From a virus, in IMG/VR virus record IMGVR_UViG_3300044630_001365, positions 1-26,207 of that record: a stretch of DNA of 26,207 nt; one strand, written 5' to 3'. Shown piece by piece: positions 1 to 24,567 of this stretch. Numbering within the stretch: position 1 is the stretch's first letter; each line of letters begins with the position of its first letter. Under the pieces are notes generated by a model, which worked only from the letters and a program-made list of their open reading frames with translations, made no database searches and had not been told where the DNA came from. A program made the translations under genes and the position numbers.

Positions 1-36
1 GCTTTTGTTCAGCAGATGATGAACCGTAAGAAATAG
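1..36 (+). CDS. 3' end of an upstream gene (partial)
   Basis: The window opens inside a reading frame whose last residues read AFVQQMMNRKK before a TAG stop. It is on the same strand and directly upstream of the virion gene run, so it is probably the last codons of another late gene. Too little is present to identify it. Confidence 0.6.
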   Translation, partial: AFVQQMMNRKK

Positions 37-54
37 AACAAATTACCCATTTGT

Positions 55-2682: not shown

Positions 2683-2685
2683 ATT

Positions 2686-3491: not shown

Positions 3492-3913
3492 GTATGTACG
3501 GCGATTATGGTGTTGCAGAAGCCGCTGCTATTAGACGGCGTAAGCAACAGTCTGAAGCAAACACTAAAGCGGCTTTTTATGGTCAGCAGCGTGGCGCACG
3601 CCGCACTGCCGACATTCAACGCCAATACAACGAAGGTTTCCAACCAATGGTGGCTAGTTATGGTCGCCGTGGTTTAGGTGGACCTAATGTGTCGTCAGGT
3701 ATTCGCACATCTGGTTTAGAGAAGTACGCACAGAATCTGCAGCGTGACCTGGGTGTGGAATCACAAAACCTACAAGATGAGTTAAATAACTTGTCCTTGC
3801 AAGAAGCAAGTCAGCAGGCTGATTTGGAAGATTACATTGCTCAGTTGCGTCTTCAGAAGCAACAGAGCGTTATTTCTGATGCTATGAACATCAGACAGAT
3901 GGCTAGTTACTAA
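3488..3913 (+). CDS. small helical virion-type protein, unknown
   Basis: 141 aa, rich in Gln, Arg and Ala. The N-terminal half contains a basic stretch (AAIRRRKQQ) and Gly-rich turns (YGRRGLGGPNVSSG). The C-terminal half (about residues 75-130) is a long Gln/Leu/Glu helix likely to form a coiled coil. It overlaps the preceding small gene by ATGA and is followed after 12 bases by the next virion gene. Gln/Ala-rich helical proteins between fibre and large internal protein genes are often internal (ejected) virion proteins in podoviruses; that role is inferred from position only. Confidence 0.65.
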   Translation: MSMYGDYGVAEAAAIRRRKQQSEANTKAAFYGQQRGARRTADIQRQYNEGFQPMVASYGRRGLGGPNVSSGIRTSGLEKYAQNLQRDLGVESQNLQDELNNLSLQEASQQADLEDYIAQLRLQKQQSVISDAMNIRQMASY

Positions 3914-3925
3914 AAGGAGATTATT

Positions 3926-4822: not shown

Positions 4823-4851
4823 AACATTTATCACATATATAAAGGGTTATT

Positions 4852-5631
4852 ATGGCTAAGAGAAATTTGACATCTTCTGATATTGTGGCGTATCTTCTTC
4901 AGGGCGGGGACATCTCCCGTCTTTCTCAGTTGGGTGTTTCACAGAAAGGTCTAATTGGGGCTTTTTTGTCTTCTCCTGAATTGGTAAGCAAGTACCGTAA
5001 ACAGGCTGAAACGGAATCGGAACCTTATGCTTCTTTTAATCCAACATATGAATATGACCCTGCTTCTAATATTAACCAGGTTGAGTCTAAGTATTATGCT
5101 ATGCCTGAAAAATACTCAAAATTTGCGAAAGATTTTTGGAACCGAGTTAAAGCAGTAGGTGCTAACCCAACGGAAGTTGGGCGCATTAAACGGGAAATTG
5201 AATCTAAACGGGATGCCTATGCTAGTGGTTCAGGTATGACCACTGACGAGTTTAACGAGTTGTGGAACGGTTTAACCAAGGATGTTGAGAACTTTCAGTC
5301 TGCAGAGTCTGCCCGTGAGAAAAGTCAGTATTCTGCTTTTTATAAGCAACGCAAAAAGTTGGGTATTACTGGTGAAGGACAGAAGGCTACTGATGAGTAT
5401 TTGCGTGCTTCTACTGGTGTTGCTGGTTTGGCTGATTTGCCAACCAGCGTTGATGATTTTGTGAAACAGAAGTCTACTAAGTTTTTGGCTGGTATTGAAG
5501 GTAAGTTTTCTGGTAAGGCTGAGCGTGAATACAAACAAATGTTTGAAGATGCTTTAAAGAAAAAGGTCGGTAAAAACTACCAGAAGTATAGCGTTACTGA
5601 TTTGTTGAAGAAGAATTTTTTGGGTGAATAA
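4852..5631 (+). CDS. probable internal virion protein, unknown
   Basis: 259 aa; AAAGGG lies upstream of the ATG. The N-terminal 40 residues (LTSSDIVAYLLQGGDISRLS) look like a small helical domain. The rest is Lys/Tyr/Glu-rich helix with no recognised motif. The stop codon overlaps the start of the 1758-aa gene (TAATG), so the two are probably translationally coupled and used together. By analogy with T7-like phages, which have two or three internal core genes in a row, it could be a smaller core component next to the giant one; this is an inference from gene order. Confidence 0.65.
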   Translation: MAKRNLTSSDIVAYLLQGGDISRLSQLGVSQKGLIGAFLSSPELVSKYRKQAETESEPYASFNPTYEYDPASNINQVESKYYAMPEKYSKFAKDFWNRVKAVGANPTEVGRIKREIESKRDAYASGSGMTTDEFNELWNGLTKDVENFQSAESAREKSQYSAFYKQRKKLGITGEGQKATDEYLRASTGVAGLADLPTSVDDFVKQKSTKFLAGIEGKFSGKAEREYKQMFEDALKKKVGKNYQKYSVTDLLKKNFLGE

Positions 5632-8600
5632 TGGCTGTATCAAAGTCCCCTTTTAGTCGCAACCCTAAAGGTAGCGACACAACAACTACTACACCACCAA
5701 ACAGGTTTAAACCAAAGTTGGATACTGGCATTTTTGAAGACATCCGTAAAATGCAAGCCGCTAGTGCTGGTTCTGGTTCTGGTTCTCAGGATTATGTTGA
5801 CATTGGGACAAAGACAACTCTGGGTGAAGAGAAGCAGAAACTTGATTCAGCATACAATACTGCTTTGGCTCGTATCGCTACTAGCCCTATGGGTGAGAAG
5901 CAGAAGGCTAAGGCTCGTAAGCAGTTTGAAGAGTTGTATAAGACTGGTAAGGTTGAAACAGACGATGATTTTAATCCTTTAAACCCGTTTGACCAACTTC
6001 GTGGTAATTTAAACAGAACAAAGGCTGTTGGAAAGTTTGTTCTTGATGGTCTTGAAACTGTTAGCCGTGTCGCTCAAGTTGCTTATTCACGCAGTTTAAC
6101 TAACCCTATCGGTGCGTATAATGCTGCTACTGGAAAAATTTCTTTTGATTCTCCTAAACAAGTTCTTGGAGAAATAAAAAGAGATATTACAAACAAAGAT
6201 TTTCGTTTGCTTCCACAAACAGGAATTAAAGCAGTTGATGCTGTTGTTGACTTCGGTGCTGATGTTGCTTTTGACCCTACAACTTATACAGGTGTGGGTG
6301 CTGTTAAGTATATTGGTTTGGCTGGTCGTACCGAGTTGGCTATTAAACTTGGTACAACAGAAATGCTGGCTAAACATCCACAGTTGATTGGAAAACTGGA
6401 CGACATTATGCGGTACGGCGTTGGTGCCGTACCGAAAGAAGTTCGTGCTGCGGAAGGTATTGAGTTCGGTATCCGTTTCGGTGGTTCTATTATACCGAAG
6501 ACTGATGCTATTGCTAATGTTATTTCTGGTCGTAACGGTATTACCACTGTGTTGCGTACACGGACAGGAGACACATTAGCCAAGGCTGGTCGTTTAGCAG
6601 AAAAAAGCGGCAAGTATACCCGTGGGTCTATAACACCTTCTAGCCGTGTCGGCATTGTCACTGCCAACATCGGACGAGATATGGGTGTTTCTGACAATAC
6701 TGTACTTCAACAGATTGCGGATTACACTTCAGCAAAATACGCTAAAGGTTATAAGGCTACAACATATAACCGTAACCTTAATGGTGTTAGAGATTTGTTG
6801 AAAGAAATCAAGGCTAACGGTGGCGAAATTCGTGTCGCTCAACTCGCAGATGATGCTGAAGCACTTCTGCGTGAACCTGACCCTGTTTTGCGTGACCTTG
6901 CTACACGCTACAAGGCGTGGCAAGATACGCTACTTCAAGAAGTTAACGCTGTACGAACAAAGTTTAATGCTGACTTCGGCGCAGACATGAAACTTATTAA
7001 CCAACTGGATGATTATGGTATTCACCACAAACTGACAGATAAAGCATTTCGTTATGCTTATGGTTCTAAAGGTAAAGCAACAGGCTGGTTCCGTGACGCT
7101 GACCTAACACCACTGGAACTTGGCACTAACACGGGTGCAGCGATGCATCGCCGTTACACCGCTGGCGAAAAATTTATGGATGAAACACTTCAAAAGGGAA
7201 CCATCGCTGAAGTTAATGAAATTTTCCGCCGTAAAACAGGTCAAGATATTGATTTCTTTGAAACAGACATTTTTGCTATTGCAGACTCTTACGCATACAG
7301 TATGGCTACAGCCCGTTCCCGTGAAGCGTATGTACGCCGACTGCTAGATTTCGGTCCTGATGTTGCGAAAGTTATAAACAAGAAACTTGTACCTGATGAT
7401 GAACTGGTAAAACTGTTGCGGGGCGCACACGCAGGGCTTGTATCTGTTCGTAACGAAGTTAAGCGTAAAGTAAACACTGGTCGTGTCCGTGCGAGAGACA
7501 CAGCAAAAGATGTCGTCAATTTCGCTAAAACCGTAATTGACGAAAAAGATGCTGACCTTGCCGTTATAAACAAGGACATCGGCGGTGTAATCAATTCTTT
7601 ATACAAGATTGAAACAACACTTGGTGAAGCATTTGCTAAGGCTGCCGCTAAATCTGCGGATGCCCGTGGAGCGTTCCTTAACATTCACGGCGCATTAATG
7701 GAAGATGTGCGTGTTTTGCGTACAGCCATTGAGGCTGGACGCATTAATGAAGTCGCTGCTTATGAATCGTTGCGGGATATTTACATTAAAATGGTTCCCG
7801 ATGCTAAGCGTATCCCTAAGTCTGCTTCGGTTTTGTTGGATAAAGTTACACGACAGATGGGCATAAAGGACCCTACTGAAGTGCGTGTTTTGGAACGCCA
7901 ACTTAAAGCACTTCAAAAGCAATTGTCTGAAACCGATAAGGTTGACCCGCAGGCTTTAAATGATTTGCTTGACCTTGAGCGTAACTTGATTGAACAAATT
8001 GATGGCTATAGTCGTTTGGCTGATGTTAAACTGGAAGCGGATTACGCTGAAGATGGTTTCCTTTATGGAACCTTTGACTCTATTGTTCCTAAACCATTTG
8101 ACCCCAATGCTGAACCTATGTTTAGGTCTATGGAAACACGACCAACTGGTGGTTCAACAACAGGTATGTCTTCTGATGAACTTGCGGCGGCTCGTCAAGC
8201 ATGGCTTGAAGACCCGAACAGTATCGCTGTCCATGCTTTAAGACCTGATGAAGTCATGGACATGCGTACCCCAGAAGCATTTTATGACTTCTGGGACCCT
8301 GATAACGGTATCGGTGAAGCAGTTGGTTATGCGTTGCGCCAGTCAGGAGCAGACCCTGAAGATGTGTTTATGTCTGTATGGAATGACGCTATGGAAGGTT
8401 TGCCTGTTGACCCAATGTTTGAACAGGTTTACCCTGAGATGGCTAACTTGATGACGGTTATCGGGTCGGTTCATAACAATGTGTTTGACCTTGGTGTTGT
8501 CCCTGACGACTTTAATGTTCAAGTGTTTAGTACGGTTAAGGAAATGTTCCAAGCCCAAGCGGCTTCTCTTGGTTTGGAAAACTCTGACCAAGTAGCAAAC

Positions 8601-10907
8601 GAAATGTTTGTTAACACGATGCGAGCCATGATTGAAGAAGGAACTGGTGGACGACCTTTGCTTCTTCCTTCACGCTTTATGGATGAAATGGACGAAGCAG
8701 CAGATGGTGCTTATAGTGTTTTGTTTCCTGATAACTTTAACTATGCTGAACGATTCGGTAAGAAAACCATTACGGATGATTTAATGACTGGTAATGGTGC
8801 CCCTGTTCAACAGACCAGTGGTAACTCTTTCTTGCGTGGCGTTGTTGACGGTGATTACCATACCGCTTCTCTTGAAGCGAACGAAATGTTGGATGCTATT
8901 GGAGAAACGGGTCAGCAACTCCAAAAAGAGTTGGCTGCCCGTGAATCTATCGCTAGTGATTTGCGTAGCACCGCTGGCAAGGTTGGTGGTGCCAAATCTG
9001 CTGGTTCACGCCGTGTTAAAGCGGCGGAAAAAGCATACGCCGATTATGCAGAATCAGGCATGGTTAATGTGTCTATTGGTGGTAAAAACATTCGTGTTAC
9101 CCGTGAAAAGGCTTTGGAAATTCTTGCTAAGCAGGAGTCTAAGTTGGCTCGTAAGGCTGAGTTGTTGGAATCCAAGATTGCAACGGAAACTGGTCGCCAA
9201 ACAGGTAGTGTTGCTCAACGCAAGGCTAAGATGGAAGAGCGTTTGGTGTCCTTGTTTGAACAGCGTAAAGTTATTGAACGCTGGAACGCAAAGACGGGTG
9301 ACGCTTTGCGTGAAGATATTGACCTATTGAAGACCGCTATTTACACTGACCCACCAACTGGTTTTGCAGGGACAATGTCAAGGGAATGGTCCGAGCGTGT
9401 CACTGCCCGTATGAACGCTATTAGTCGTCTTGATGGCACTGGTGCTAAGGATGCGTGGGAGCGTGTAGTTACACAGTTGCATGCTGATGAAACACAATTA
9501 GCGTTGTTGGAGTTTGATGCTATTCCACGGGCTGCTCGTGAGTTAACAGATGCTGAACTGGGTATTGTTGGTGGTTCTATGCGTGACGACATCCTTGATG
9601 GATGGAAGGCGTTGGAATCCACTGGTGTTATGATTCCCGACGAGTTCTATAAGGTTATCCGACCTAATGTTGATAAGTTGGTTAAAAAGGCGGAGCAGGC
9701 TGTGTGGCTGCGGGCGATTAAGCGTTATAACCAAATCTTTAAGATTTACGCTACGATGACCCCTGGATTTGTTGTTCGTAATGCCATGTCCGCAACCTTT
9801 ATGAATAAAGTTGCGGGTGTAGATAACAAGAACATCATGGACGGAATTAAGGCTGCTGTTGCTTATAAGCAGCATGGTCCTGTTAAGTGGCTGGATGAGA
9901 TGGGCATTACTGATTTGGCTGAGCGTGAGATGTACGAGTCTGCTATGCGTTCTGTTCAGGCTACGGGTCGTGGTATTCAGTCCGACTTTGTGAACCCTAC
10001 TTTGCGTGGTGGTTTTGCCGAGAAGATTGCTAATAACAAGGCTACTCGTTTCTTGGGTGATGCTAACGAGTTCACGGAAAACGCTGTGCGTCTTCCTATG
10101 GCTATTGACACTCTTCGTAAGGGCAACTCTTATGATGAAGCGGTTATGCGTATTTCACGATTCCATTTTGACTATACGGACCTTAGTGGTTTTGATGAAG
10201 CGATGAAGAACTTCATTCCGTTTTGGGTGTGGACTAGCCGTAACCTTCCGTTGCAGATGACGGAGATGGTGTTGCGTCCTAGTTACTATAATGCTTATTT
10301 CCAGTTGCGTGAGCGTAACCCTGCCGCTGGTGACATTTTGATGCCACGCTGGATTAATGATGCTGGTCCGTTTAGTTTGGGTGGCACTAAAGTGTTGACA
10401 CCTGATATGCCGATGACTCGTTTGGAGCAAACTGTTGGTCAGTTTGTTTCGCCTAGTAAGTTGGTTGGTCAGTTTACACCTATTGCTAAGTTGCCTATTG
10501 AAATGCTTGCTGATAAACAGTTGGCTATGGACATTCCTTTCACCGATAAATACGAAGAAGCAAAAGGTGTTGACAAAATTATTGCTGGTTTAGGAAGTTT
10601 GGCGGATATTGAAGGTTTAGGTCGCAGAAACGCTGAAGGCAAACTAGAAATTAACCCCAAGATTAACTATGCTATTGGTAACGCTTTACCGACTATCGCC
10701 ACTTTACAGCGTTTGGCTGGTGGAGAACTGGGTGGTAAGTCAACTTATCAGGAGCGTCAGGCTTCCAATGTGGCTAACTTCTTTGGTGTTCCTTACCGTG
10801 ATATTGGTCCACGCCAACAGCGTGGAGAAGCAATTAACCGTCAGTTCAAGATTCGTGAAATGCTTCAGGAACTTGCCCGTAAAGGAAAGATAGAAACTAA
10901 TGATTAA
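5631..10907 (+). CDS. giant internal virion / DNA-ejection protein (1758 aa)
   Basis: The largest gene in the window. The N-terminus is disordered and Thr/Pro/Gly-rich (about residues 1-60). The bulk is long helical segments, several likely coiled coils (around 640-700 and 1130-1210). Near the C-terminus there are two segments common in huge phage virion proteins: TPGFVVRNAMSATF at about 1377-1390 and FIPFWVWTSRNLPLQM from 1528, the latter following FHFDYTDLSGF. I see no clear lytic transglycosylase or peptidase motif, unlike T7 gp16. Length, position after smaller helical proteins and coupling to the lysin gene fit a core protein ejected into the cell at infection. A tail-associated role is the alternative. 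Confidence 0.65.
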   Translation: MAVSKSPFSRNPKGSDTTTTTPPNRFKPKLDTGIFEDIRKMQAASAGSGSGSQDYVDIGTKTTLGEEKQKLDSAYNTALARIATSPMGEKQKAKARKQFEELYKTGKVETDDDFNPLNPFDQLRGNLNRTKAVGKFVLDGLETVSRVAQVAYSRSLTNPIGAYNAATGKISFDSPKQVLGEIKRDITNKDFRLLPQTGIKAVDAVVDFGADVAFDPTTYTGVGAVKYIGLAGRTELAIKLGTTEMLAKHPQLIGKLDDIMRYGVGAVPKEVRAAEGIEFGIRFGGSIIPKTDAIANVISGRNGITTVLRTRTGDTLAKAGRLAEKSGKYTRGSITPSSRVGIVTANIGRDMGVSDNTVLQQIADYTSAKYAKGYKATTYNRNLNGVRDLLKEIKANGGEIRVAQLADDAEALLREPDPVLRDLATRYKAWQDTLLQEVNAVRTKFNADFGADMKLINQLDDYGIHHKLTDKAFRYAYGSKGKATGWFRDADLTPLELGTNTGAAMHRRYTAGEKFMDETLQKGTIAEVNEIFRRKTGQDIDFFETDIFAIADSYAYSMATARSREAYVRRLLDFGPDVAKVINKKLVPDDELVKLLRGAHAGLVSVRNEVKRKVNTGRVRARDTAKDVVNFAKTVIDEKDADLAVINKDIGGVINSLYKIETTLGEAFAKAAAKSADARGAFLNIHGALMEDVRVLRTAIEAGRINEVAAYESLRDIYIKMVPDAKRIPKSASVLLDKVTRQMGIKDPTEVRVLERQLKALQKQLSETDKVDPQALNDLLDLERNLIEQIDGYSRLADVKLEADYAEDGFLYGTFDSIVPKPFDPNAEPMFRSMETRPTGGSTTGMSSDELAAARQAWLEDPNSIAVHALRPDEVMDMRTPEAFYDFWDPDNGIGEAVGYALRQSGADPEDVFMSVWNDAMEGLPVDPMFEQVYPEMANLMTVIGSVHNNVFDLGVVPDDFNVQVFSTVKEMFQAQAASLGLENSDQVANEMFVNTMRAMIEEGTGGRPLLLPSRFMDEMDEAADGAYSVLFPDNFNYAERFGKKTITDDLMTGNGAPVQQTSGNSFLRGVVDGDYHTASLEANEMLDAIGETGQQLQKELAARESIASDLRSTAGKVGGAKSAGSRRVKAAEKAYADYAESGMVNVSIGGKNIRVTREKALEILAKQESKLARKAELLESKIATETGRQTGSVAQRKAKMEERLVSLFEQRKVIERWNAKTGDALREDIDLLKTAIYTDPPTGFAGTMSREWSERVTARMNAISRLDGTGAKDAWERVVTQLHADETQLALLEFDAIPRAARELTDAELGIVGGSMRDDILDGWKALESTGVMIPDEFYKVIRPNVDKLVKKAEQAVWLRAIKRYNQIFKIYATMTPGFVVRNAMSATFMNKVAGVDNKNIMDGIKAAVAYKQHGPVKWLDEMGITDLAEREMYESAMRSVQATGRGIQSDFVNPTLRGGFAEKIANNKATRFLGDANEFTENAVRLPMAIDTLRKGNSYDEAVMRISRFHFDYTDLSGFDEAMKNFIPFWVWTSRNLPLQMTEMVLRPSYYNAYFQLRERNPAAGDILMPRWINDAGPFSLGGTKVLTPDMPMTRLEQTVGQFVSPSKLVGQFTPIAKLPIEMLADKQLAMDIPFTDKYEEAKGVDKIIAGLGSLADIEGLGRRNAEGKLEINPKINYAIGNALPTIATLQRLAGGELGGKSTYQERQASNVANFFGVPYRDIGPRQQRGEAINRQFKIREMLQELARKGKIETND

Positions 10908-16878: not shown

Positions 16879-17587
16879 TTTTTCTCCAAGTGCAAGGATA
16901 GTCTGCTATTTACAATAAACAGTATAGCACGGACAAGGACAGTCTATTGTCACTGTTCCATTGTCCCTGCCAATACTGTCTATAGTCTATGGTTATGTGT
17001 TACGCACCCGCTAATTTCTTGCGGTGGCGTTCACGAACTTTATTTACAACTGTCGGGTTATACTCTTTACCGAACTCTTTATGGACTATGTCCACAATTT
17101 CCCGTGAAGTCAACTCTGTTTCTTTCGCTAATTGATGTAGCATTTTCTGTGCGGGTTTATCCCCGCCTTTCAAACGCTCACGGCGTTCCGACCAATACTT
17201 GCGGATACCGTTCACCATAGCGACAGTCAAACCTAGTTGCCTAGCAAGTTCCCGATAATTTAGATTATCCCCCATAAACAGTTCGTCTAGTTCCGCTATG
17301 CGTTCCTGAGTCCAACCGTCACCTGCCTTACCTGTTGTTAGGCTGTCCATTAGAAACTGTGGTTCTAATTCGTGGTAGTTCATAATCTCAACGAGACTAT
17401 CGTTGAACTTGTCCATAGCATACTGTACGACTTCACGCACCTTACCCCACTGCACGAACGGAGAATCATTATCATCCAACTCAATAGGTTCCATTTCAAG
17501 CAAACTCTCCCCTTGAAGGGAGTGTTTGGAATAATGATAAGCATCATAAAAAGTTTCAAGGTCAACCAAATAGTCAAGGATAGTCTG
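16072..17587 (+). repeat. six dispersed copies of CAAGGAYAGTC(T)
   Basis: Direct copies begin at 16072 (ending TCC), 16668, 16707, 16893, 16934 and 17575. Five have the full 12 bases CAAGGAYAGTCT and three of these continue with G. Two lie in the intergenic region 16879-16999. The others are inside the Cas4-like and HTH genes, in different reading frames, so protein coding does not explain them. Candidates are binding sites for a phage regulator (the neighbouring double-HTH protein is one) or replication iterons. Confidence 0.7.
16879..16999 (-). promoter_or_regulatory. intergenic regulatory region with operator-like repeats
   Basis: 121 bases separate the HTH gene from the Cas4-like gene. 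Two of the six CAAGGAYAGTCT copies lie here. On the - strand a good -10 hexamer TATACT sits at 16926-16921, but no -35 at standard spacing is convincing. A promoter overlapped by operator repeats is plausible and would separate the DNA metabolism operon from the early genes. GGAG before the Cas4-like start is the ribosome binding site. Confidence 0.4.
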
Positions 17588-17758
17588 CCTTGTCCAAGGG
17601 ACACCATAACCTTTCAACTCGCACAACTCACGCCCCATCCACATATCGTGTACGCCGTTCCTAGTTATAGGAACAATGTTATGTGGTATGACAACATCAC
17701 ATAAACACGACAAGTCGTGTTCGGCAACACCGCATCCTAGTTCATTTTCAATGTCCAT
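17000..17758 (-). CDS. protein with two helix-turn-helix segments, probable DNA-binding regulator
   Basis: 252 aa; the start overlaps the upstream stop (TGATG). The N-terminal half (1-140) is acidic and helical with several Cys (C9, C18, C20) and is not recognised. Residues about 149-190 hold a typical HTH (ERIAELDELF, then NYRELARQLGLTVAMVNGIR). Residues about 215-247 hold a second HTH-like unit (LTSREIVDIVHKEFG, then NPTVVNKVRERHRKKL). It could be a transcription regulator of the leftward operons or a DNA-organising protein. It stands next to the repeat cluster at 16.0-17.6 kb, which makes those repeats its candidate sites; this link is inference. Confidence 0.6.
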   Translation of the reverse strand: MDIENELGCGVAEHDLSCLCDVVIPHNIVPITRNGVHDMWMGRELCELKGYGVPWTRQTILDYLVDLETFYDAYHYSKHSLQGESLLEMEPIELDDNDSPFVQWGKVREVVQYAMDKFNDSLVEIMNYHELEPQFLMDSLTTGKAGDGWTQERIAELDELFMGDNLNYRELARQLGLTVAMVNGIRKYWSERRERLKGGDKPAQKMLHQLAKETELTSREIVDIVHKEFGKEYNPTVVNKVRERHRKKLAGA

Positions 17759-17994
17759 CAGTCGTATCCTATCTCTTCAATGAGTTCTTCATAATCGGCT
17801 AAACACCACTCTAATGCTTCAATAATGAAACTGAAAACAGTTTCATATTCATATTCCATAGCGCATTGACCACCGTATTTAGAGACATTGTGGTAACGAG
17901 TTACCACCCATCCCTTGTGTGCGTTGGCGTACTGCACTTCATAGTAGCCGTCAATGTCGGGCGCATCAACGGTTATCAATTTTATTGATTCCAT
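17758..17994 (-). CDS. 78-aa acidic protein, unknown
   Basis: AGGAGAAAG precedes the ATG. The N-terminal half is beta-like (YYEVQYANAHKGWVVTRYHN); the C-terminal half is acidic helix (IIEALEWCLADYEELIEEIG). There is no motif I recognise. It ends in a TGATG overlap with the HTH gene and is likely co-translated with it. Its coding DNA carries two of the strong inverted repeats (17825-17846 and 17890-17907). The strong net negative charge is reminiscent of phage DNA mimics or inhibitors, but nothing specific supports such a role. Confidence 0.65.
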   Translation of the reverse strand: MESIKLITVDAPDIDGYYEVQYANAHKGWVVTRYHNVSKYGGQCAMEYEYETVFSFIIEALEWCLADYEELIEEIGYD

Positions 17995-18003
17995 AACTTT
18001 CTC

Positions 18004-18306
18004 CTAAATATCATCCAAATAGTTATCTTCAACACCTGTCACTTTAGTGACGGCATCGCTAATAAATTCCCAACCGTAAATGTCGGCAACAGCATCAATG
18101 CTGTAATCCCACTCCCTAGTTGCCATAACCGCATCCAACAGTTCACCTGTTGGTTCCACCAACCTAGACTCTAGTACGGTTACAATGTCTTCGGCGGACC
18201 AAACAACCCCCTTGAAACCGAACTTATACATAAGTTGTCTTATAACCCGATACGCTGTATCGGGACATTCCATTGATTCAATATATTGAATTGATTCAGT
18301 GTCCAT
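18004..18306 (-). CDS. 100-aa protein, paralogue of the gene at 18608-18868
   Basis: The start is taken at 18306, where ATG overlaps the upstream stop (TAATG) and GGGAG lies upstream; a start five codons earlier is possible. The protein shares a pattern with the product of 18608-18868: KFGFKGVVWSAEDIVTVLES against KFGWKGVMFTRDYVRQAVIE, and LLDAVMATREW against KVDAVMSGRMW. The two therefore appear to be a duplicated small family within the window. No catalytic motif is seen. The coding sequence contains a perfect 16-base palindrome (18276-18291) and an 8-bp hairpin (18246-18264). Confidence 0.7.
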   Translation of the reverse strand: MDTESIQYIESMECPDTAYRVIRQLMYKFGFKGVVWSAEDIVTVLESRLVEPTGELLDAVMATREWDYSIDAVADIYGWEFISDAVTKVTGVEDNYLDDI

Positions 18307-18605
18307 TATTCTTTCTCCCATTCTGGATTATTTAGAATCTCCAACGCTTGAAGATACTCTTCATCAGTTTCCTTCGTCCACTTGCCTTGTTCCATATCAA
18401 ACGCAGGACCTTCGGTGAATCTATCCACCAAAATTCTATCGTCAATATATTTAGTTTGAGTGGATAAATCTACCGCCACTACGAAGTAGATTTTCTTACC
18501 TGTTTGCATTGCCGATAGGCAAGCACCGCACACGGTTTCGTCAAACTCGTAATCGGCTAGGTCGTAACCGCATTGGTCACAATAGCGTTTATCTTCTGTT
18601 TCCAT
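18306..18605 (-). CDS. zinc-ribbon protein, unknown
   Basis: 99 aa. Cysteines C9, C12, C26 and C29 in YCDQCGYDL and VCGACL form a classic four-Cys zinc ribbon. The rest has a beta strand (KKIYFVVAVDLSTQTKYIDD) and an acidic helical tail. AAAAGGA is the ribosome binding site. It lies between the two related small genes and is coupled to the downstream one. Zinc ribbons of this size in phage early regions usually bind nucleic acid or a host protein; the target is not known. Confidence 0.7.
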   Translation of the reverse strand: METEDKRYCDQCGYDLADYEFDETVCGACLSAMQTGKKIYFVVAVDLSTQTKYIDDRILVDRFTEGPAFDMEQGKWTKETDEEYLQALEILNNPEWEKE

Positions 18606-18607
18606 TG

Positions 18608-18868
18608 TTATTTATCCTTTTCTGTTTCTACAATTGCATCATAGATGCATCCCATACCTTCAGTAGCAATGGCTTCTTCAAGGTCTTTCACCCACATACG
18701 ACCAGACATAACAGCGTCCACCTTGTCGTCAAGGCTTTCCGACCATCCATAATGCTCAATGACGGCTTGCCGTACATAATCACGGGTGAACATTACACCC
18801 TTCCATCCAAACTTGTGGGCGAAGTCCCACATAAGTTTCAACGCTTGGTCTTCAGTATAATTTTCCAT
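18608..18868 (-). CDS. 86-aa protein, paralogue of the gene at 18004-18306
   Basis: MENYTEDQALKLMWDFAHKF, then GWKGVMFTRDYVRQAVIEHY and KVDAVMSGRMWVKDLEEAI. The spacing of KFG(F/W)KGV and the (L/V)DAVM motif matches the protein of 18004-18306 end to end. AAAGGAAAA is the ribosome binding site. Both are acidic, helical and early-located. Duplicated small genes flanking a zinc-ribbon gene suggest tandem duplication followed by divergence. Function unknown. Confidence 0.7.
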   Translation of the reverse strand: MENYTEDQALKLMWDFAHKFGWKGVMFTRDYVRQAVIEHYGWSESLDDKVDAVMSGRMWVKDLEEAIATEGMGCIYDAIVETEKDK

Positions 18869-18870
18869 TG

Positions 18871-19062
18871 TTATTTTCCTTTCAGTTCCATAACGGTAAT
18901 ACCTTTACCGATATGGTTATTACACGACGGCGGAGCCGTCATTTTTACGAATATCTCAACGGTGTTTTTACACCGTGGACATACCCAAATGCCTGCTTTA
19001 TACAACTGAACGGGGGGCTTACGCCCCCCGTTGTTTGTTGTTTCTTTCACGGCACTTGCCAT
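18871..19062 (-). CDS. zinc-finger mini-protein (C-x2-C / C-x2-H)
   Basis: 63 aa. GIWVCPRCKNTVEIFVK followed by PPSCNNHIGK gives C28, C31, C47 and H50, a compact metal-binding fold. Proteins of this 'W-x-C-x-x-C ... P-x-C-x-x-H' kind occur in actinophages as unknown short proteins. The start overlaps the upstream stop (TAATG). The codons for NNGGRKPPVQ contain a perfect 10-bp inverted repeat, which is more likely to be selected at the nucleic-acid level than by the protein. Confidence 0.7.
   Translation of the reverse strand: MASAVKETTNNGGRKPPVQLYKAGIWVCPRCKNTVEIFVKMTAPPSCNNHIGKGITVMELKGK
19009..19032. repeat. 10-bp perfect inverted repeat, loop of 4
   Basis: Arms AACGGGGGGC and GCCCCCCGTT flank the loop TTAC. 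It is the most G+C-rich hairpin of the early region and lies inside a coding sequence. It has no following T-run on the - strand, so an intrinsic terminator for the leftward transcript is unlikely. Confidence 0.9.
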
Positions 19063-19703
19063 TATAACATCTCCTTCATCTGTAGGCAGAAGCGTGTAAT
19101 TTCCTGCATCTCATCTGCGTTCAATTCGTCAATGCCTTCGGCATTATCTTCGGCAAATGTAGCAACATCATCCAACATACCCTTTAGGGTAGCAATGGCG
19201 TTGTTATACCGTTCTGATGAACGGTCACCATTTACGGAGCAGTCGTACATTGCGAAAGTGGCACGGTCAAGTGTGTCAACATCACAGATGTTGTGTTGAA
19301 TGGCGAAGTCGCAAATAGTAGCCATACTAACCGCAAGGTTATAAGCACTAGCCGTTCCTTCGGTCAAACCTGAGACTAATACTTCGTATACTTCTTCGGG
19401 AATGTCGTAGTTTTCTCCGTCATACTCGCCGTTCTGTGCTAAGCCCCACACAACTACGCAGTTACCGTGAATCTCACGCTTGAAGAGATTAGTGGCGAGA
19501 TAATTCATCTCCATACCGTTGATGAGAAACTCATCATTGACATAGCCAACGAACAACATTTCTTCCATACCACAATTTGTGGTAACACAGTCAAAGTGAC
19601 CACCTACGGCAGACTGAATGGATTTATGGTCTTCTACGAAGATAGGTTCGGGTTCAACATTGACCCCGCTAGGTAGGAATAATCCTACGGTAATTGATGA
19701 CAT
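19062..19703 (-). CDS. DUF3846-like protein
   Basis: 213 aa. The first 90 residues follow the DUF3846 pattern seen in actinobacteria and their phages: a strand plus 'EDHKSIQSAVGGHFDCV', then YVNDEFLINGMEMNYLATNL and VVVWGLAQNG. The remaining 120 residues are acidic helix (for example LDDVATFAEDNAEGIDELNA) and are not recognised. The high acidic charge resembles antirestriction DNA mimics that often sit near DUF3846 genes, but that is speculative. The leader contains a hairpin (AACCT-GAA-AGGTT in mRNA sense) that includes the ribosome binding site GAAAGG and, just upstream, the box shared with three other genes. Confidence 0.6.
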   Translation of the reverse strand: MSSITVGLFLPSGVNVEPEPIFVEDHKSIQSAVGGHFDCVTTNCGMEEMLFVGYVNDEFLINGMEMNYLATNLFKREIHGNCVVVWGLAQNGEYDGENYDIPEEVYEVLVSGLTEGTASAYNLAVSMATICDFAIQHNICDVDTLDRATFAMYDCSVNGDRSSERYNNAIATLKGMLDDVATFAEDNAEGIDELNADEMQEITRFCLQMKEML

Positions 19704-19847
19704 TATATAACCTTTCAGGTTAGTAGGGATTTATTGGAGCCGTTGACTCCGTGACACATAGCGAGCATCTGCGGTGTCCACTATGTATCACGCAACCAAC
19801 GGGAATTGGTTGGTGCAGACTATTGTCTGCAGTTAGTTTATCGGTTG
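19704..19847 (-). promoter_or_regulatory. structured leader upstream of the DUF3846-like gene
   Basis: 144 non-coding bases made almost entirely of inverted repeats. TGCAGAC/GTCTGCA is at 19814-19831 (loop TATT). CAACCAA/TTGGTTG is at 19793-19812. A long arm pair at 19751-19761 and 19781-19791 matches at 10 of 11 positions with a 19-base loop. A small hairpin at 19708-19722 contains the ribosome binding site. The box TAGTAGGGAT is at 19721-19730. Such a compact series looks like a structured 5' leader RNA. No known riboswitch class is recognised. Confidence 0.6.
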
Positions 19848-20105
19848 TTATCTCCGTTTCCACCATAGAGAACAGATAGTTCTAACAATGTCGCTGTCCT
19901 TTATTTGGATGTAAATCCAATAATTTATCAACACGAAAGCGTAGAACACTAGCAATGTTATCGTTAGCATAACGATAATCATTAGCAGATTCACGGTCAT
20001 AATCTGGTCATTCTCCCACTGTCCCCTAAGCGTTAGGAGCAGGGACAGCAGGAAACACCAACTGAATAGGGCTATGCCCCATTCCCATAGTTTGTCCGTG
20101 TTCAT
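19848..20105 (-). CDS. two-span membrane protein, holin candidate
   Basis: 85 aa with two hydrophobic segments: about residues 7-26 (WEWGIALFSWCFLLSLLLTL) and about 36-66 (a run of Met, Ile, Leu, Val through YAFVLINYWIY). They are joined by a short polar loop (RGQWENDQ), and the C-terminus ends in WWKRR. Size, two spans and charged tail are within the range of phage holins, and no holin is seen next to the lysin. However, it lies in the early-type leftward operon, so superinfection exclusion or another membrane role is equally possible. Its ribosome binding site is in the 3' arm of a 9-bp hairpin at 20112-20135. Confidence 0.65.
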   Translation of the reverse strand: MNTDKLWEWGIALFSWCFLLSLLLTLRGQWENDQIMTVNLLMIIVMLTITLLVFYAFVLINYWIYIQIKDSDIVRTICSLWWKRR

Positions 20106-20107
20106 AA

Positions 20108-20350
20108 TTAGTTACCTTTCAATTCTGAAAGGTAATCACGATTCATCTCCAACGGCATACCCAATTGACTAGTTAGATAAACTAGTCGGTCCTTGTCGCT
20201 AGGCAATTCCATAAGGTCCTGAATCTGTTGAAACTCCCAATGGGATACATCCCATACGAAGTCAACATTACCCATCATACTAGGGCTAAAAGCCCATAGC
20301 CCCGATGCTTTATGAAAACCAACATAAGTTGGTGAAGTTTGAATGGTCAT
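20108..20350 (-). CDS. 80-aa protein, unknown
   Basis: Start taken at ATG 20350 (TGATG overlap with the upstream gene, GGGGG upstream). The product has a beta-like N-terminus (SPTYVGFHKASGLWAFSPSM) with several Trp and a helical C-terminal part. No family is recognised. Its DNA includes the hairpins at 20112-20135, 20167-20187 and 20240-20255. Confidence 0.65.
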   Translation of the reverse strand: MTIQTSPTYVGFHKASGLWAFSPSMMGNVDFVWDVSHWEFQQIQDLMELPSDKDRLVYLTSQLGMPLEMNRDYLSELKGN

Positions 20351-20610
20351 CACTTGTCCCCCTTCAGGGCTAATTGTGCCTGATTATAGGCACGGTGTAG
20401 GTTTTCGTATGCAGTGTCCAAATGGTACAACTCATCATTGAGTTGGTCAATACGATGTTCGTATCTATGAACTGCATTATGTAATTGAGCCTTTAGGTCA
20501 ATTACTTCCTGATGTTTTTCGTCAACTTGTTTCTGCAACTGTGTTGCAGTAATCTGCAAGTTGCGAATGTTACGGCGTAGCCGTTTCACAATGGGTAATT
20601 TGCTAAACAT
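20350..20610 (-). CDS. 86-aa coiled-coil protein, unknown
   Basis: After a basic N-terminus (PIVKRLRRNIRN) the whole protein is a heptad coiled coil (LQITATQLQKQVDEKHQEVI, then LNDELYHLDTAYENLHRAYN). The start codon lies inside a perfect 18-base palindrome (20604-20621), with GAAAGG just upstream on the mRNA. The basic head and coiled coil would suit a small scaffold or DNA-bridging protein; nothing more specific can be said. Confidence 0.7.
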   Translation of the reverse strand: MFSKLPIVKRLRRNIRNLQITATQLQKQVDEKHQEVIDLKAQLHNAVHRYEHRIDQLNDELYHLDTAYENLHRAYNQAQLALKGDK

Positions 20611-20632
20611 TATAATGTTTACCTTTCTTTAG

Positions 20633-20752
20633 TCAGTCTTCTTCGCAGAATTTTCCATCTTCACAGATGGAACATTGAATGTCTGTCTCTAGCAGAGACA
20701 CTCTTCCACACCAAACGCATAACAACTTCTGTTGTTCATCGTCAATAAACAT
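20633..20752 (-). CDS. 39-aa zinc-ribbon mini-protein
   Basis: Found by translating the gap between two larger genes. ATG at 20752 (ribosome binding site AAAGGA) opens MFIDDEQQKLLCVWCGRVSL; the product ends with two further Cys (CSICEDG, KFCEED) before TGA. CVWC and CSIC give a four-Cys metal site. Length and acidity resemble other tiny zinc ribbons in this region. The start codon is enclosed in the hairpin ATAAAC/GTTTAT. The strong ribosome site and exact fit in the gap support it as a real gene. Confidence 0.75.
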   Translation of the reverse strand: MFIDDEQQKLLCVWCGRVSLLETDIQCSICEDGKFCEED

Positions 20753-20766
20753 TGTTTATCCTTTCT

Positions 20767-21642
20767 TTATAATTCGGATGGAATAAGTTCCATCCCCTTG
20801 AGAGTTTGCATAACCCAACCCATAGGGTCACGAACGATGTCACCGCTACCGTCCTGAAGTTTCTCTACGATTACATCGTATTCATCCAACATTGGCAACC
20901 CCATTTTATGGGGTCTACCATAGCCACTACCCATAGTGGCGTGCTGTTCGTATGCTGTTGCGCTCTGTTCCTGAACAGAGAATGTTAGTCGGCGCAACAT
21001 TGAAGGATGAGCCAAAGCGAACATAACGGAGTTTATGTCCAAAGTATCTGCCGAGTCGTGCAGTTTCACTGCCGTACTATAGGCGTGTTCTCCGTCACCC
21101 GCTATCGTTGAATCCCACCACAACTCAACACCAAAGCCGAGTTTATTGATGGTATCAATAAGCGACAACACCGCAATGCCACGCTTCATAAGCCATTCGG
21201 CTTGAATATAAGAACTTGCAGTTCCTGCAACGACAACCTTTATAACTCTGCCGATAGACTTATCGGCACTAGCGGAAAAGTTCACCATACATTCAGGGTC
21301 ACCTTCCACGAAACGCCCCATATCCACATAAGCACCACCAAAGTCGTAGGTCGGCTTATAAAGTTCCGATAATTTATCGGCAAGTCGTTCGGTAACATCC
21401 GTAAGGATGTTATCAACCTTAGGACGCAACTCGGTCCAACCTTCGGTTGCTAACTCGCAAGTAGCCTTGAGTGTTCTGGCGTGTGGTCCGTGCCAATCTT
21501 CTTCAAACTTCTTATCCGAAGACCCTGTCTTCGGATTAGTTTGGGCAAACTTTATGAACTCACCTAGTGAGTCAAACAACTCACAATGCAGTTTCTTACC
21601 CTTAGGCATAGCCTTGTTGCCGTATTCGTTGATGATTCTCAT
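20767..21642 (-). CDS. partner of the MoxR/CobS-like ATPase; degenerate von Willebrand A-like protein
   Basis: 291 aa from ATG 21642, chosen because GGAG lies just upstream in a hairpin loop; the frame is open further up to 21705 but that part has no ribosome site. Residues about 1-95 (SLGEFIKFAQTN, DWHGPHARTLKATCELATEG) are helical. A central stretch at about 130-185 (RVIKVVVAGTASSYIQAEWL, then IAVLSLIDTINKLGFGVELW) has the alternation of a von Willebrand A core, with AGTASS where the metal-binding D-x-S-x-S would be. The Asp is lost, so metal binding is doubtful. MoxR-family ATPases usually pair with such proteins, and the ATPase gene is directly upstream. The assignment is structural inference. 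Confidence 0.5.
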   Translation of the reverse strand: MRIINEYGNKAMPKGKKLHCELFDSLGEFIKFAQTNPKTGSSDKKFEEDWHGPHARTLKATCELATEGWTELRPKVDNILTDVTERLADKLSELYKPTYDFGGAYVDMGRFVEGDPECMVNFSASADKSIGRVIKVVVAGTASSYIQAEWLMKRGIAVLSLIDTINKLGFGVELWWDSTIAGDGEHAYSTAVKLHDSADTLDINSVMFALAHPSMLRRLTFSVQEQSATAYEQHATMGSGYGRPHKMGLPMLDEYDVIVEKLQDGSGDIVRDPMGWVMQTLKGMELIPSEL

Positions 21643-21669
21643 TTGAAACTCCGTTTCAATAGTAGGGAT
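21643..21669 (-). promoter_or_regulatory. hairpin leader with ribosome site in loop, plus shared box
   Basis: In mRNA sense the stem TTGAAAC/GTTTCAA encloses GGA of the ribosome binding site GGAG. TAGTAGGGAT (+ sense) follows at 21660-21669. The same arrangement occurs before the genes starting at 23005 and 23320, and a variant before 19703. Confidence 0.7.
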
Positions 21670-21683
21670 AATTGGGGTAATGA

Positions 21684-21705
21684 GTGTGGCACTAAAGTGC
21701 CACAC
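21684..21705. repeat. 10-bp inverted repeat over the stop of the ATPase gene
   Basis: GTGTGGCACT and AGTGCCACAC are separated by AA, and the stop codon of the leftward ATPase gene lies at the centre. There is no T-run afterwards, so it is not a standard terminator. It may act as a 3' stabilising hairpin or processing site between the ATPase and its partner gene. Confidence 0.85.
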
Positions 21706-23005
21706 CCATCATAACCTTGTCGGCAACTTCAGGCTTCGCACCCTTGAGAATTGTTGTATCAACAATTTCCTTGAGAGTGTAAGCGTCACCCTTGAGAAGT
21801 TTGGCACCGTTGACAGTGGCTCGTGGTGAAACCACGACACGCAAACCATAATTCTCAACATTCTTTCGTGCCATACGGACGATGTTGAGCCACTTAGCCG
21901 ACACCGTTGGCTCTAAGCCAACCGCATTTAGCATTGCTTCTTCAATACCGTTATCGTAACCGATAACGACACTAGCGAAACGGTCAAGGAAAGCCGCATC
22001 CAAAGGATTACGACCCACATACTCGGCAGTAGCACCGTGACCGAAGGTATTCGCCGTAGCAACAAGGACGAAGTCCTTGTGACGCTTCACCATTCCATCA
22101 GGGAAAGCCATAAAGGTATTCGCTAAAGCGGAGTTCAACACCGTCAACACATTGGCGTTACCGTTATCTACTTCATCAAGTAGATAAACACCGCCAAACT
22201 CAAACGCTGTTCGGAACCCTGTTCCGACATACTGCCCCGTAGCCGACATATAACCCAACAGAGAAGACTCTGTTGCTTGACTAGAGCACGACTTGCTATA
22301 AAAGTCAAGCCCTAAGGCTTGAGAAGCATTTTCGGCAATGGTTGACTTGCCTGTGCCTGCAGGACCAACCAAATAGGTTGGGACACGGCATTGAAGATTC
22401 AACAACACCTTGTTGAAGTTATAATGTTGGACTCCGTCCAACTTGCGAACTTCACCAGACGGAAGTTTCACTTCCGTAACTTTCGGTTGCATAGTTGCAA
22501 TAACATCCTTCAAGGATGTTACTTCTTCAACAACACCATTGAAAATGGTTAGATAACCTTCCATCGCACCGTTTACGGTGTTGGCAATCTCATCCTTAGG
22601 TAACTCAGGGACGAAGTCCCCGATAACCGCTTCAACAATGGCACGAAGTGCCCCGTCAAGCCCACCTTCGGTGGTTCGTGGCTGTGTAGGCATTGGAGCC
22701 TTCTCTTTCTCCACCTTCGGTGGTTCTGGTTGTGGTGTTGGACGAGAACCAACTTCAATAACGGTTACACCGTTACTAAGCAGCAATTCTTTCTGCTTTT
22801 CGTAGAAAGCCTGCAGTTCGTTGTCCTTGCGGTGCATTGGGGAACCCTGAAAGGTTACCCCCATAGCCTTGAGAGTTTGAATACGGTCTACCTTCGCTAA
22901 GAAGGTAAATCTGTCGGTTCGGTCACGATTCCAACCATAAGGTTGGACAGTAACACGGTCTGTCTCTAAGTTGATACTTAGAATGGTGGATGCTTTATGA
23001 GCCAT
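21692..23005 (-). CDS. MoxR/CobS-like AAA+ ATPase
   Basis: 437 aa from ATG 23005 (ribosome site GGAG in a hairpin loop); the frame is open 20 codons further up but without support. Residues 1-80 are a small N-terminal domain, and residues about 88-112 a Pro/Lys linker. The AAA+ core starts near 200. Walker A is GPAGTGKS (214-221), Walker B is VYLLDEVD (273-280), sensor 1 is VATANT (315-320) and the arginine finger region is FLDRF (R342). This is the MoxR/CobS branch, which uses ATP to remodel a partner, often with a von Willebrand A protein. CobS-like genes are known from several phage groups with unclear purpose. The partner candidate follows immediately. Confidence 0.75.
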   Translation of the reverse strand: MAHKASTILSINLETDRVTVQPYGWNRDRTDRFTFLAKVDRIQTLKAMGVTFQGSPMHRKDNELQAFYEKQKELLLSNGVTVIEVGSRPTPQPEPPKVEKEKAPMPTQPRTTEGGLDGALRAIVEAVIGDFVPELPKDEIANTVNGAMEGYLTIFNGVVEEVTSLKDVIATMQPKVTEVKLPSGEVRKLDGVQHYNFNKVLLNLQCRVPTYLVGPAGTGKSTIAENASQALGLDFYSKSCSSQATESSLLGYMSATGQYVGTGFRTAFEFGGVYLLDEVDNGNANVLTVLNSALANTFMAFPDGMVKRHKDFVLVATANTFGHGATAEYVGRNPLDAAFLDRFASVVIGYDNGIEEAMLNAVGLEPTVSAKWLNIVRMARKNVENYGLRVVVSPRATVNGAKLLKGDAYTLKEIVDTTILKGAKPEVADKVMMGVAL

Positions 23006-23098
23006 TATGAAACTCCGTTTCACTAGTAGGGAATAGGTGACTCCCACCGTGAGCATAATGCCCACGGTGGGAAACTAGAAACAACACTCTTTAGAGTG
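23006..23098 (-). promoter_or_regulatory. intergenic region with two strong hairpins and shared box
   Basis: From upstream to downstream on the mRNA there is an 8-bp stem AACACTCT/AGAGTGTT (23083-23100), then a 10-bp stem (23042-23051 with 23063-23072) whose loop itself contains GCAT-A-ATGC. The box TAGTAGGGA follows at 23024-23032, then the ribosome-site hairpin TGAAAC/GTTTCA (23008-23022). It probably controls or insulates expression of the ATPase gene. No known element is recognised. Confidence 0.6.
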
Positions 23099-23320
23099 TT
23101 ATAACGCCAAATTAGGGTCATAAGCGACCCATTCAACAGAAACGAATTCTTCGTTTATGTACTTATACGCAAGGCAACCAACAACGCCGTGGATAGGATG
23201 TGTGTATTCCACACACTCTTCGGCGTGATGAACTCCGTTATCATCCGTGAAAGATGCGTACCACTCTTCGGTTGCATAGCAACCACGGGGGGCAGAATCA
23301 AAAATAGGTGATGGGGACAT
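23099..23320 (-). CDS. 73-aa protein, unknown; first gene of the leftward early operon
   Basis: MSPSPIFDSAPRGCYATEEW, then YASFTDDNGVHHAEECVEYT and LAYKYINEEFVSVEWVAY. It appears beta-rich and acidic, with Cys14, Cys36 and Cys49 and a His pair (H31-H32). No family is recognised. It is the gene nearest the strong leftward promoter, so it is likely the earliest and most highly expressed. First genes in phage early operons often encode host-takeover or antidefence factors, but nothing in the sequence shows which. GGAG in the loop of a 7-bp hairpin serves as ribosome binding site. Confidence 0.65.
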   Translation of the reverse strand: MSPSPIFDSAPRGCYATEEWYASFTDDNGVHHAEECVEYTHPIHGVVGCLAYKYINEEFVSVEWVAYDPNLAL

Positions 23321-23345
23321 TATGAACTCCGTTCATAGTAGGGAT
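23321..23345 (-). promoter_or_regulatory. ribosome-site hairpin and shared box before the first early gene
   Basis: In mRNA sense TATGAAC/GTTCATA encloses GGA of GGAG, and TAGTAGGGAT (+ sense) covers 23336-23345. It has the same layout as the leaders before 21642 and 23005. Confidence 0.7.
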
Positions 23346-23416
23346 TATGGATAAGGCAAGGACAAGCCAAGCCCCTAACTACCGTTAGGTAGTAGTACAC
23401 GGAAAGGGAATTGCAC

Positions 23417-23473
23417 CCCACACGGACAATGTCCGTGCTACTAAGTCCGTGTGGGACGGTATAAATACCGTCC
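23417..23473 (-). promoter_or_regulatory. mutually exclusive hairpins in the early leader
   Basis: CACGGAC (23421) can pair with GTCCGTG at 23431 (7 bp, loop AAT) or, as part of an 11-bp arm starting at 23417, with the second copy of GTCCGTG extended to 23455. The two pairings exclude each other. A separate 9-bp hairpin GGACGGTAT/ATACCGTCC at 23454-23473 competes with the last bases of the long arm. This is the layout of attenuators and switching leaders. Confidence 0.5.
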
Positions 23474-23760
23474 ACAATAAGTCACATTACGATAACACCC
23501 CGTAGGGGACAGAAACACCTTATCTGTCTAATCCTACGGATTATCGCCGTGTCTCCTGCCCTAAGCAACTACTTTATACCGCAATAACCATAGGTTATTC
23601 TAGGCGAGTTCTATCGCTGGCACCACTCGGCATAATGCAGAGTGTGACACTAGGTACGCTAACGAAGGAAACATCCCGTGACCCCGTTAGTCGTGCCGTA
23701 CCTTTATCGCCCTAATCGGGAGTACGGCTCTAATCGGCGGTACCGACTAGGTTGCCAATC

Positions 23761-23789
23761 ACAATAAGCCCTAGATTTTCACTTGTCAA
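23761..23789 (-). promoter_or_regulatory. leftward sigma70-like early promoter
   Basis: On the - strand a perfect -35 TTGACA (23789-23784) is followed after exactly 17 bases by TATTGT (23766-23761, four of six matches to TATAAT). Transcription would begin near 23753 and run into the early operon, giving a leader of about 430 bases before the first start codon at 23320. It is the best promoter match I found by eye. Confidence 0.65.
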
Positions 23790-24101
23790 GGGGTAATTAT
23801 TCTTCACCCACCGCAAACCCTTGCAAAATAAGGAAAAAAAAATTTGGAAAAAATTCCGAAAGTCGTATACACACACCCCTAGGTATACGGTTTCACCGTC
23901 ACCCAAACACGCCGAAACCCCGTGCATAATGCACACGGTTTCTCGTGTCACAGGAAAAACACACATAGGCACACACACCGCACGACACGGGTCATCACGC
24001 CCGTATGCGCCCGCATTGGGGGGTTTATAGTCACAATAACCATAATCATTTAGGGTATAAAGCACCATAATCCATTGGCTATCGGCATCCTAGCCACACA
24101 C

Positions 24102-24130
24102 GGGCAGGGGGGCACGGGGGGGTACGGGGG
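24102..24130 (+). other. G-quadruplex motif
   Basis: Four G-runs of 3, 6, 7 and 5 bases are separated by CA, CAC and TAC, which meets the usual intramolecular G-quadruplex rule with short loops. It lies in non-coding DNA next to the point where strand composition changes. More G-runs follow at about 24178-24197. Confidence 0.75.
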
Positions 24131-24201
24131 TGCGAGTGCTAAAGTAGTATTTATCGTATAGCCGATGCGTTGTATTTTGGGGTTTGGGCATAGGGGGCAT
24201 G

Positions 24202-24234
24202 AAAAAACCCCCATGGGGGTGGGGGTCTTTTTTT
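24202..24234. terminator. bidirectional intrinsic terminator
   Basis: The 14-base palindrome ACCCCCATGGGGGT (24207-24220) is followed on the + strand by a second G5 run and TCTTTTTTT, and on the - strand directly by a T run (the A6 at 24202-24207). The leftward gene ending at 24274 is 40 bases away, so the main use is probably to end that three-gene unit and to block read-through in both directions. Confidence 0.75.
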
Positions 24235-24273
24235 AAGTACCGTATGAGCCTTGCTATATAAGGGTTTGATACC

Positions 24274-24567
24274 TTACCATTTGACTTTGTTTGCCCAGTA
24301 TGCGGCTGACATTGGTCCTTTGGCTATGTTTTTGGCGTGGCGTGTTTGGAAGCGGTTGCGGCGGCTGGCGTAGGCTGCTGATTCGCCTTTCTTTTTGGGT
24401 GACCCTTTTACGCCTTGTTGTCCGAAGCGGATGGTTTTTACCATGCCGCCTGATTTGGCTACTACGATGTGGGATTTGGTTGGGTGGGTTGGTGTGGCTT
24501 TGGGTTTGTTGTAGCCGCTTACTCCTGCTCGTGCTAGTCGTGGGTCGGTTGCTTTTCGTGGTGCCAT
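24274..24567 (-). CDS. conserved basic phage protein (MSAAYWANKVKW C-terminus), unknown
   Basis: 97 aa, strongly basic. The N-terminus (APRKATDPRLARAG) is disordered; the middle is SHIVVAKSGGMVKTIRFGQQ (32-51). The end carries RHxxNIxxG (76-84) and MSAAYWANKVKW (86-97). I have a recollection of small basic proteins with this ending in environmental and marine phages, with no known function. The charge suggests binding of DNA or virion components. It is the last gene before a bidirectional terminator. The codon use differs from the early zone (T/G-rich + strand), so it belongs to a different compositional segment. Confidence 0.75.
   Translation of the reverse strand: MAPRKATDPRLARAGVSGYNKPKATPTHPTKSHIVVAKSGGMVKTIRFGQQGVKGSPKKKGESAAYASRRNRFQTRHAKNIAKGPMSAAYWANKVKW

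Follow-up and report, generated by a model that had tools for sequence, protein, structure and literature searches.

A carpet of perfect mini-hairpins in the 5' part of a phage early operon, with ribosome sites set in hairpin loops

The hairpin carpet described here lies in a phage sequence of 26,207 nt (IMG/VR record IMGVR_UViG_3300044630_001365, positions 1 to 26,207; hereafter the window), the plus strand of which carries late genes while the minus strand carries an early/replication operon. Its gene content, including structural genes, a primase, a DnaB helicase and a PD-(D/E)XK nuclease, is that of a tailed double-stranded DNA (dsDNA) phage. The early operon begins with a non-coding leader behind a putative promoter, followed by a first gene, genes encoding an AAA ATPase and a DUF7192 protein, and further downstream a DUF3846 gene (Table 1), and it is here, on the strand of the early mRNA, that small perfect hairpins are closely packed. 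The downstream end of the putative promoter is separated from the first carpet hairpin by 161 nt, and this spacing is identical in a relative, G002.

A scan of the whole window for perfect stems of at least 6 bp enclosing loops of 3-8 nt returned 146 hairpins, as compared to 38 in dinucleotide shuffles, with nearly all of the excess located between 17,000 and 24,000. Specifically, the carpet is densest at 19,000-23,600 and falls to background by approximately 15,000. Hairpins are spaced at about one per 61 nt in coding bodies and leader alike, and the core density of 9-17 per kb compares with approximately 0.6 per kb expected, while late genes are at chance. The great majority of carpet loops measure 3 or 4 nt, while the late region displays no loop-size preference. 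When codons were shuffled synonymously within genes, the 17 hairpins in the coding body of the ATPase gene fell to 1.3 and the 12 in the DUF7192 gene fell to 0.8; across 20 carpet phages, the ATPase gene contains 258 hairpins versus 20.8 in synonymous shuffles. Hairpins cover 25% of intergenic sequence and 17% of sequence within genes, and folding of 120-nt windows yields mean z values of -1.8 to -2.8 in carpets, whereas late genes lie at about -0.5 to -1.2. The carpet does not consist of copies of one sequence, as would a dispersed palindromic repeat of the repetitive extragenic palindromic (REP) type: the listed hairpins differ from one another, a few at ribosome-binding sites (RBSs) excepted. 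A search of 17000-24500 against Rfam returned no match.

Table 1. Features of the early operon and of its hairpin carpet in the window.
Feature	Coordinates	Strand	Remark
Putative early promoter, TTGACA-17-TATTGT	23761..23789	-	Consensus match and conserved spacing
Non-coding, carpet-bearing leader upstream of the first early gene	23345..23600	-	
Hairpin carpet on the early-mRNA strand: about 80 perfect hairpins, 3-4-nt loops, 6-10-bp stems	17000..23600	-	
First early gene	23099-23320	-	ATG at 23320
RBS hairpin of gene 23099-23320	23321..23337	-	Loop GGA
AAA ATPase gene (Pfam AAA_5, phrog_249)	21692..23005	-	
RBS hairpin of the ATPase gene	23008..23022	-	Loop GGA
DUF7192 gene	20767..21642	-	
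RBS hairpin of the DUF7192 gene	21643..21659	-	Loop GGA
Stem-loop enclosing the ATG of a small open reading frame	20745..20759	-	Start at 20752
Palindromic hairpin enclosing an ATG	20604..20621	-	ATG at 20610
10-bp hairpin upstream of an ATG, Shine-Dalgarno sequence within the 3' arm	20112..20135	-	ATG at 20105
DUF3846 gene		-	Start at 19703
RBS hairpin of the DUF3846 gene	19708..19722	-	

Attention was originally drawn to this operon by its gene starts. A preliminary description of the window reported that seven early genes have the ribosome site or the ATG within a short stem-loop, and all seven hairpins are present where it placed them. The GGA-loop stems that it noted at three starts are found directly 5' of the ATGs at 23320 (tatgaacGGAgttcata), 23005 (tgaaacGGAgtttca) and 21642 (ttgaaacGGAgtttcaa), and the single exception that it named, the start at 20350, is hairpin-free, its ATG overlapping the upstream stop codon as TGATG. 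Measured against dinucleotide shuffles, the seven hairpins are far above chance. What the description overlooked is that gene bodies and leader are just as densely hairpinned. Because equally good hairpins fill the surrounding 6.6 kb, of which they cover a quarter and in which a random 19-nt zone touches a hairpin with a probability of 0.48, the presence of hairpins at seven of eight starts is of marginal significance within the window itself (binomial P of approximately 0.03 by our own arithmetic). None of the next ten starts downstream (19062-14445) has a start-site hairpin. A separate observation concerns the leader word TCCCTACTA, which precedes the RBS hairpin at four early starts (23320, 23005, 21642 and 19703; minus strand) and is also found upstream of the ATPase gene in two carpet-less sister phages, L008 and L011.

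A special relationship between hairpins and ribosome sites emerges when carpet phages are compared. Gene starts in the relatives were assigned by a simple script, and positions were tested against random placement inside the same carpets, using 87 carpet genes with a Shine-Dalgarno sequence (SD) from 12 phages. The SD falls within a hairpin in 46 genes versus 26.7 expected, a number reached in 0 of 2,000 random placements, while hairpins at the start itself are depleted (16 versus 29.4 expected, P = 0.001). Both tendencies persist, more weakly, when each lineage is represented by a single genome (SD, 32 versus 20, P = 0.0015; start, 15 versus 22, P = 0.047). Similarly, among 92 carpet genes hairpin coverage is approximately 0.5 over the SD, is only 0.03-0.05 between the start codon and about +16, and has climbed to 0.38 by +40; genes farther down the early operon show no hairpins at the SD in this comparison. 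In the 45 genes whose SD core touches a hairpin, the loop holds the core in 36 and the 3' arm in six, while in three the position is mixed. Ribosome sites are thus displayed in loops, not hidden, with exceptions in the window at 20610, 20752 and 20105, where the SD or the start codon is paired.

One start-site hairpin has a history of its own. The RBS hairpin of the ATPase gene recurs across the family, carpet-less phages included, with varied stems such as atttacGGAGgtaaat, tacaacTGGAGgttgta and tgaaacGGAgtttca. In 17 versions, 98 of 102 pairs are Watson-Crick, as compared to a mean of 58 and a maximum of 75 when arms are shuffled, and individual positions are occupied by up to four pair types. 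These 17 leaders were picked for an SD-in-loop hairpin; the set therefore shows that pairing is kept amid sequence change but gives no measure of how often the element occurs. Other branches have a hairpin directly 5' of the SD. Alignment of leaders from related phages, a check suggested in the preliminary description, thus finds this start hairpin kept by covariation, and the pattern marks it as a genuine conserved element on top of the carpet, as judged from sequence comparison.

Hairpin density is maintained across the family while the positions of individual hairpins turn over. Hairpins are shared at a rate of 78% above 90% protein identity and 64% at approximately 82% nucleotide identity, and near 50% protein identity about 15% are still shared, which is 3.6 times chance. 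Several lines of evidence demonstrate that the stems are under selection. Firstly, G001 is 90% identical to the window, and 52 of the 75 stems that could be aligned between them have not changed; independent change of positions would be expected to leave approximately 23% intact (0.9^14). Secondly, divergence at fourfold-degenerate sites is 15.1% in stems versus 25.0% outside (P = 1e-11 over 17 pooled, non-independent pairs), with the same direction in 15 of the 17 pairs. Additionally, 82 of 108 double changes in close pairs restore Watson-Crick pairing versus about a third by chance; by our own arithmetic, compensatory doubles occur at about ten times expectation, a figure within which single templated events are not separated.

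Relatives were gathered by way of the ATPase, DUF7192 and DnaB helicase, with few phages from outside the family in the survey. In all of the carpet genomes profiled, hairpins set in sharply at the early operon's 5' end and thin out over the next 3-7 kb; the remainder of this operon, like all late genes, is at background. The carpet is nonetheless a labile trait of the family, having been repeatedly gained or lost. Two sister phages with 54-55% identity in the ATPase, L008 and L011, are carpet-less and nested inside the carpet clade on the ATPase tree. In a survey anchored on DnaB, which covered 53 loci and the window, hairpin density is high in 18, low in 28 and intermediate in eight, the high-density label changing seven times on the survey tree, with at least five of these changes forced by well-supported branches. 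No gene was found that is shared by all carpet phages and absent from L008 and L011. In the wider set, two small gene clusters are found in carpet-less and in no high-density phages; both were set aside as an explanation, the first because the late strand encodes it and the second, a basic protein of short length that has no functional annotation, because it is confounded with lineage. This protein (~87 aa, '...SKGRPTRKALALRKWDC'), encoded where the early operon begins, was found in 7 of 14 low-density phages and in none of high density; its carriers are L192-194, L209, L211-213 and L223, the eighth of which, L212, is of intermediate density, and lineage may confound the association.

Beyond these phages, a more distant one with other gene content and 56% GC, L189 (IMGVR_UViG_3300044729_001638, 1-6000), has an equally dense carpet (15 hairpins per kb), possibly of independent origin, which suggests that there are further cases. 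Named Mycobacterium, Gordonia and Tunturiibacter phages with the ATPase/DUF7192 pair have no carpet, while Manatee Spring phage MW202803 shows a weak, fourfold hairpin excess. A nucleotide search of named phages gave no match, and a search of genome contigs for a host returned distant ATPases only.

The carpet is biased toward the mRNA strand in its loops. Against a coding-aware null, GNA loops are enriched 5.9-fold versus 1.75-fold for their reverse complement TNC, and TNNG loops 2.5-fold versus 0.4-fold for CNNA; C(TTCG)G occurs seven times on the sense strand, and its CGNA-type complement is absent. We favor, with moderate confidence, the reading that early mRNA has been selected for local folding with its ribosome sites on display, and that selection acts on hairpin density instead of on particular hairpins; by this account the carpet would fold within the mRNA in vivo. 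The early operon would be written, mainly through synonymous codons, such that a small, fast-folding and very stable hairpin arises approximately every 60 nt over the 5' 4-7 kb, with the SD set in an apical loop just 5' of an unstructured start codon, an arrangement that we propose would leave initiation open. The first transcripts would thereby most likely be kept locally folded yet translatable.

Such transcripts may be shielded from host factors that need single-stranded or pairable RNA, with RNase E/J-type decay, Rho loading and RNA-guided defence as speculative candidates for what is evaded. Resistance to a host activity of this kind could account for a carpet that is polarised to the 5' end, does not depend on sequence, turns over and has repeatedly been lost, for example after a change of host. 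That this lineage-labile carpet of synonymous codons over the first-transcribed 4-7 kb, with SDs in loops, is a sequence-independent shield against a host RNA-directed activity is nevertheless offered only tentatively, and may well prove wrong.

Several observations weigh against folding at the RNA level. One is a scarcity of G-U pairs, which selection on RNA should tolerate better: stems of at least 7 bp number 276 when perfect (9 expected), with G-U pairs nearly absent, while those containing one G-U pair number only 57 when scored for the mRNA strand, against an expectation of 18.5, and 42 when scored for the opposite strand, against 18.7, and one-sided changes in close pairs yield G-U 167 times versus A-C 164 times. 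GNRA tetraloops, which are favoured in many structured RNAs, show no enrichment, TNC loops (GNA on the opposite strand) are mildly enriched as well, and predicted antisense folding is about equally strong. The scarcity of G-U pairs may leave room for a contribution from DNA-level structure or from template switching.

Template switching has been shown to generate RNA hairpins with perfect stems (PMC8794818), and a carpet that the replication machinery keeps making and repairing as perfect inverted repeats by such a mutational process (quasi-palindrome correction) could have little or no function as hairpins, purifying selection merely clearing those that block translation starts. That this mechanism can both produce perfect hairpins and preserve them is documented (PMC8794818). 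It agrees with carpet stems that are almost purely Watson-Crick, mismatched stems being at background level, with frequent multi-base compensatory changes, which the published hairpins show too, and with turnover of positions at constant density. Unlike the published hairpins, however, those of the carpet are concentrated in one operon, constrained at silent sites and placed with respect to starts, and mutation alone neither slows silent-site evolution in stems nor keeps hairpins within the 5' region of a single operon, and explains neither the mRNA-strand loop types nor the placement of SDs in loops. As a full account it is thus unlikely, while as the source of new perfect hairpins, and hence of their Watson-Crick purity, template switching is plausible.

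The GNA triloops of the carpet with C-G closure resemble extra-stable mini-hairpins that are known for DNA. Together with the lack of strong G-U tolerance on either strand, this resemblance would suit hairpins that act in single-stranded or cruciform DNA, in replication, priming, protein loading or entry, with any effect on mRNA being incidental. Yet GNNA and similar extra-stable DNA loops are not enriched, TNNG loops are strand-biased, C(TTCG)G is found seven times on the sense strand versus none of CGNA type, and the distribution tracks the transcription unit and spares start codons, all of which makes a purely DNA-level role improbable.

Equally improbable is the scheme suggested in the preliminary description, in which start-site hairpins hide ribosome sites until a phage protein, an RNA or temperature opens them, so timing early translation. 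A link to initiation does stand, in that SD hairpins exceed their local background and that of the ATPase gene covaries across the family, and at 20610 and 20752 the ATG itself is inside a hairpin. A switchable repressive scheme, however, is not supported: SDs lie in the loop in 36 of 45 genes, hairpins are depleted from the start codon and the first ~16 nt, and later genes of the early operon lack start-site hairpins altogether. No obvious dedicated candidate for a trans-acting partner was found, because no gene tracks the trait over all carpet phages while missing from the carpet-less sisters, and a scheme confined to start codons was rejected because gene bodies are equally dense. Lastly, although single short hairpins do arise randomly at about 0.6 per kb, an origin of the carpet in chance, base composition or codon usage has next to no likelihood, hairpins in many independent contigs exceeding both the dinucleotide and the synonymous-codon null ten- to thirty-fold and carpet phages of the helicase survey ranging from 44 to 56% GC.

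The proposed local folding of early mRNA invites comparison with known systems. Genome-scale ordered RNA structure (GORS) is a pervasive, diffuse folding of some RNA viruses in which structure is kept as individual structures change. The carpet likewise pervades coding sequence and is preserved despite change of individual structures, and its coding RNA folds more stably than shuffled versions do, as is expected of GORS. It differs in occurring in a dsDNA phage instead of a virus with an RNA genome, in being limited to the 5' part of one operon, hairpins being at chance levels in the operon's 3' half and in late genes, and in consisting of discrete perfect mini-hairpins with 3-4-nt loops. RBS-sequestering hairpins, such as RNA thermometers and the translational operators of RNA phages and T4, share with the carpet a small hairpin at the ribosome site and, at the ATPase gene, covariation, but here the SD is mostly in the loop, the start codon is clear and gene bodies are filled too. 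Viruses with dsDNA genomes have been found to reduce mRNA structure near start codons (PMC3072339), and the start and first codons are depleted of structure in carpet phages as well, albeit against an extreme hairpin background and with an SD-in-loop hairpin immediately upstream.

The literature searched, coverage of which was incomplete, yielded no account of a phage with such a carpet in its early operon. In this dsDNA phage, silent sites are under selection on the scale of an operon, apparently for the shape of the mRNA, and silent sites in carpet phages should not be taken as neutral. Since carpet-plus and carpet-minus sisters have the same genes, questions of function are directly testable, among them why viruses structure coding RNA, what lets early phage mRNA survive, and by what design the SD is kept accessible. 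Were the carpet indeed a shield, it would be a protein-free counter-defence encoded purely in the shape of mRNA.

Other features of the window are recorded here in their own right. The sequence ACGGGATGTT is common to the early leaders of the window (~23640-23710, minus strand) and of G002 (~29180-29240) and sits within a stem whose flanks differ (CTAAC/GTTAG versus CTAGA/TCTAG), making it a candidate for a structured leader RNA. Just past the early promoter region, at 24207-24226, a near-symmetrical ACCCCCATGGGGGT stem between A and T runs resembles a bidirectional terminator. On the plus strand, 5631-10907 encodes a late protein of 1,758 aa that is present in 15 of 16 compared genomes and has no Pfam match, while on the minus strand the phage primase (13540-14445) matches the archaeo-eukaryotic primase domain of TOTE conflict systems.

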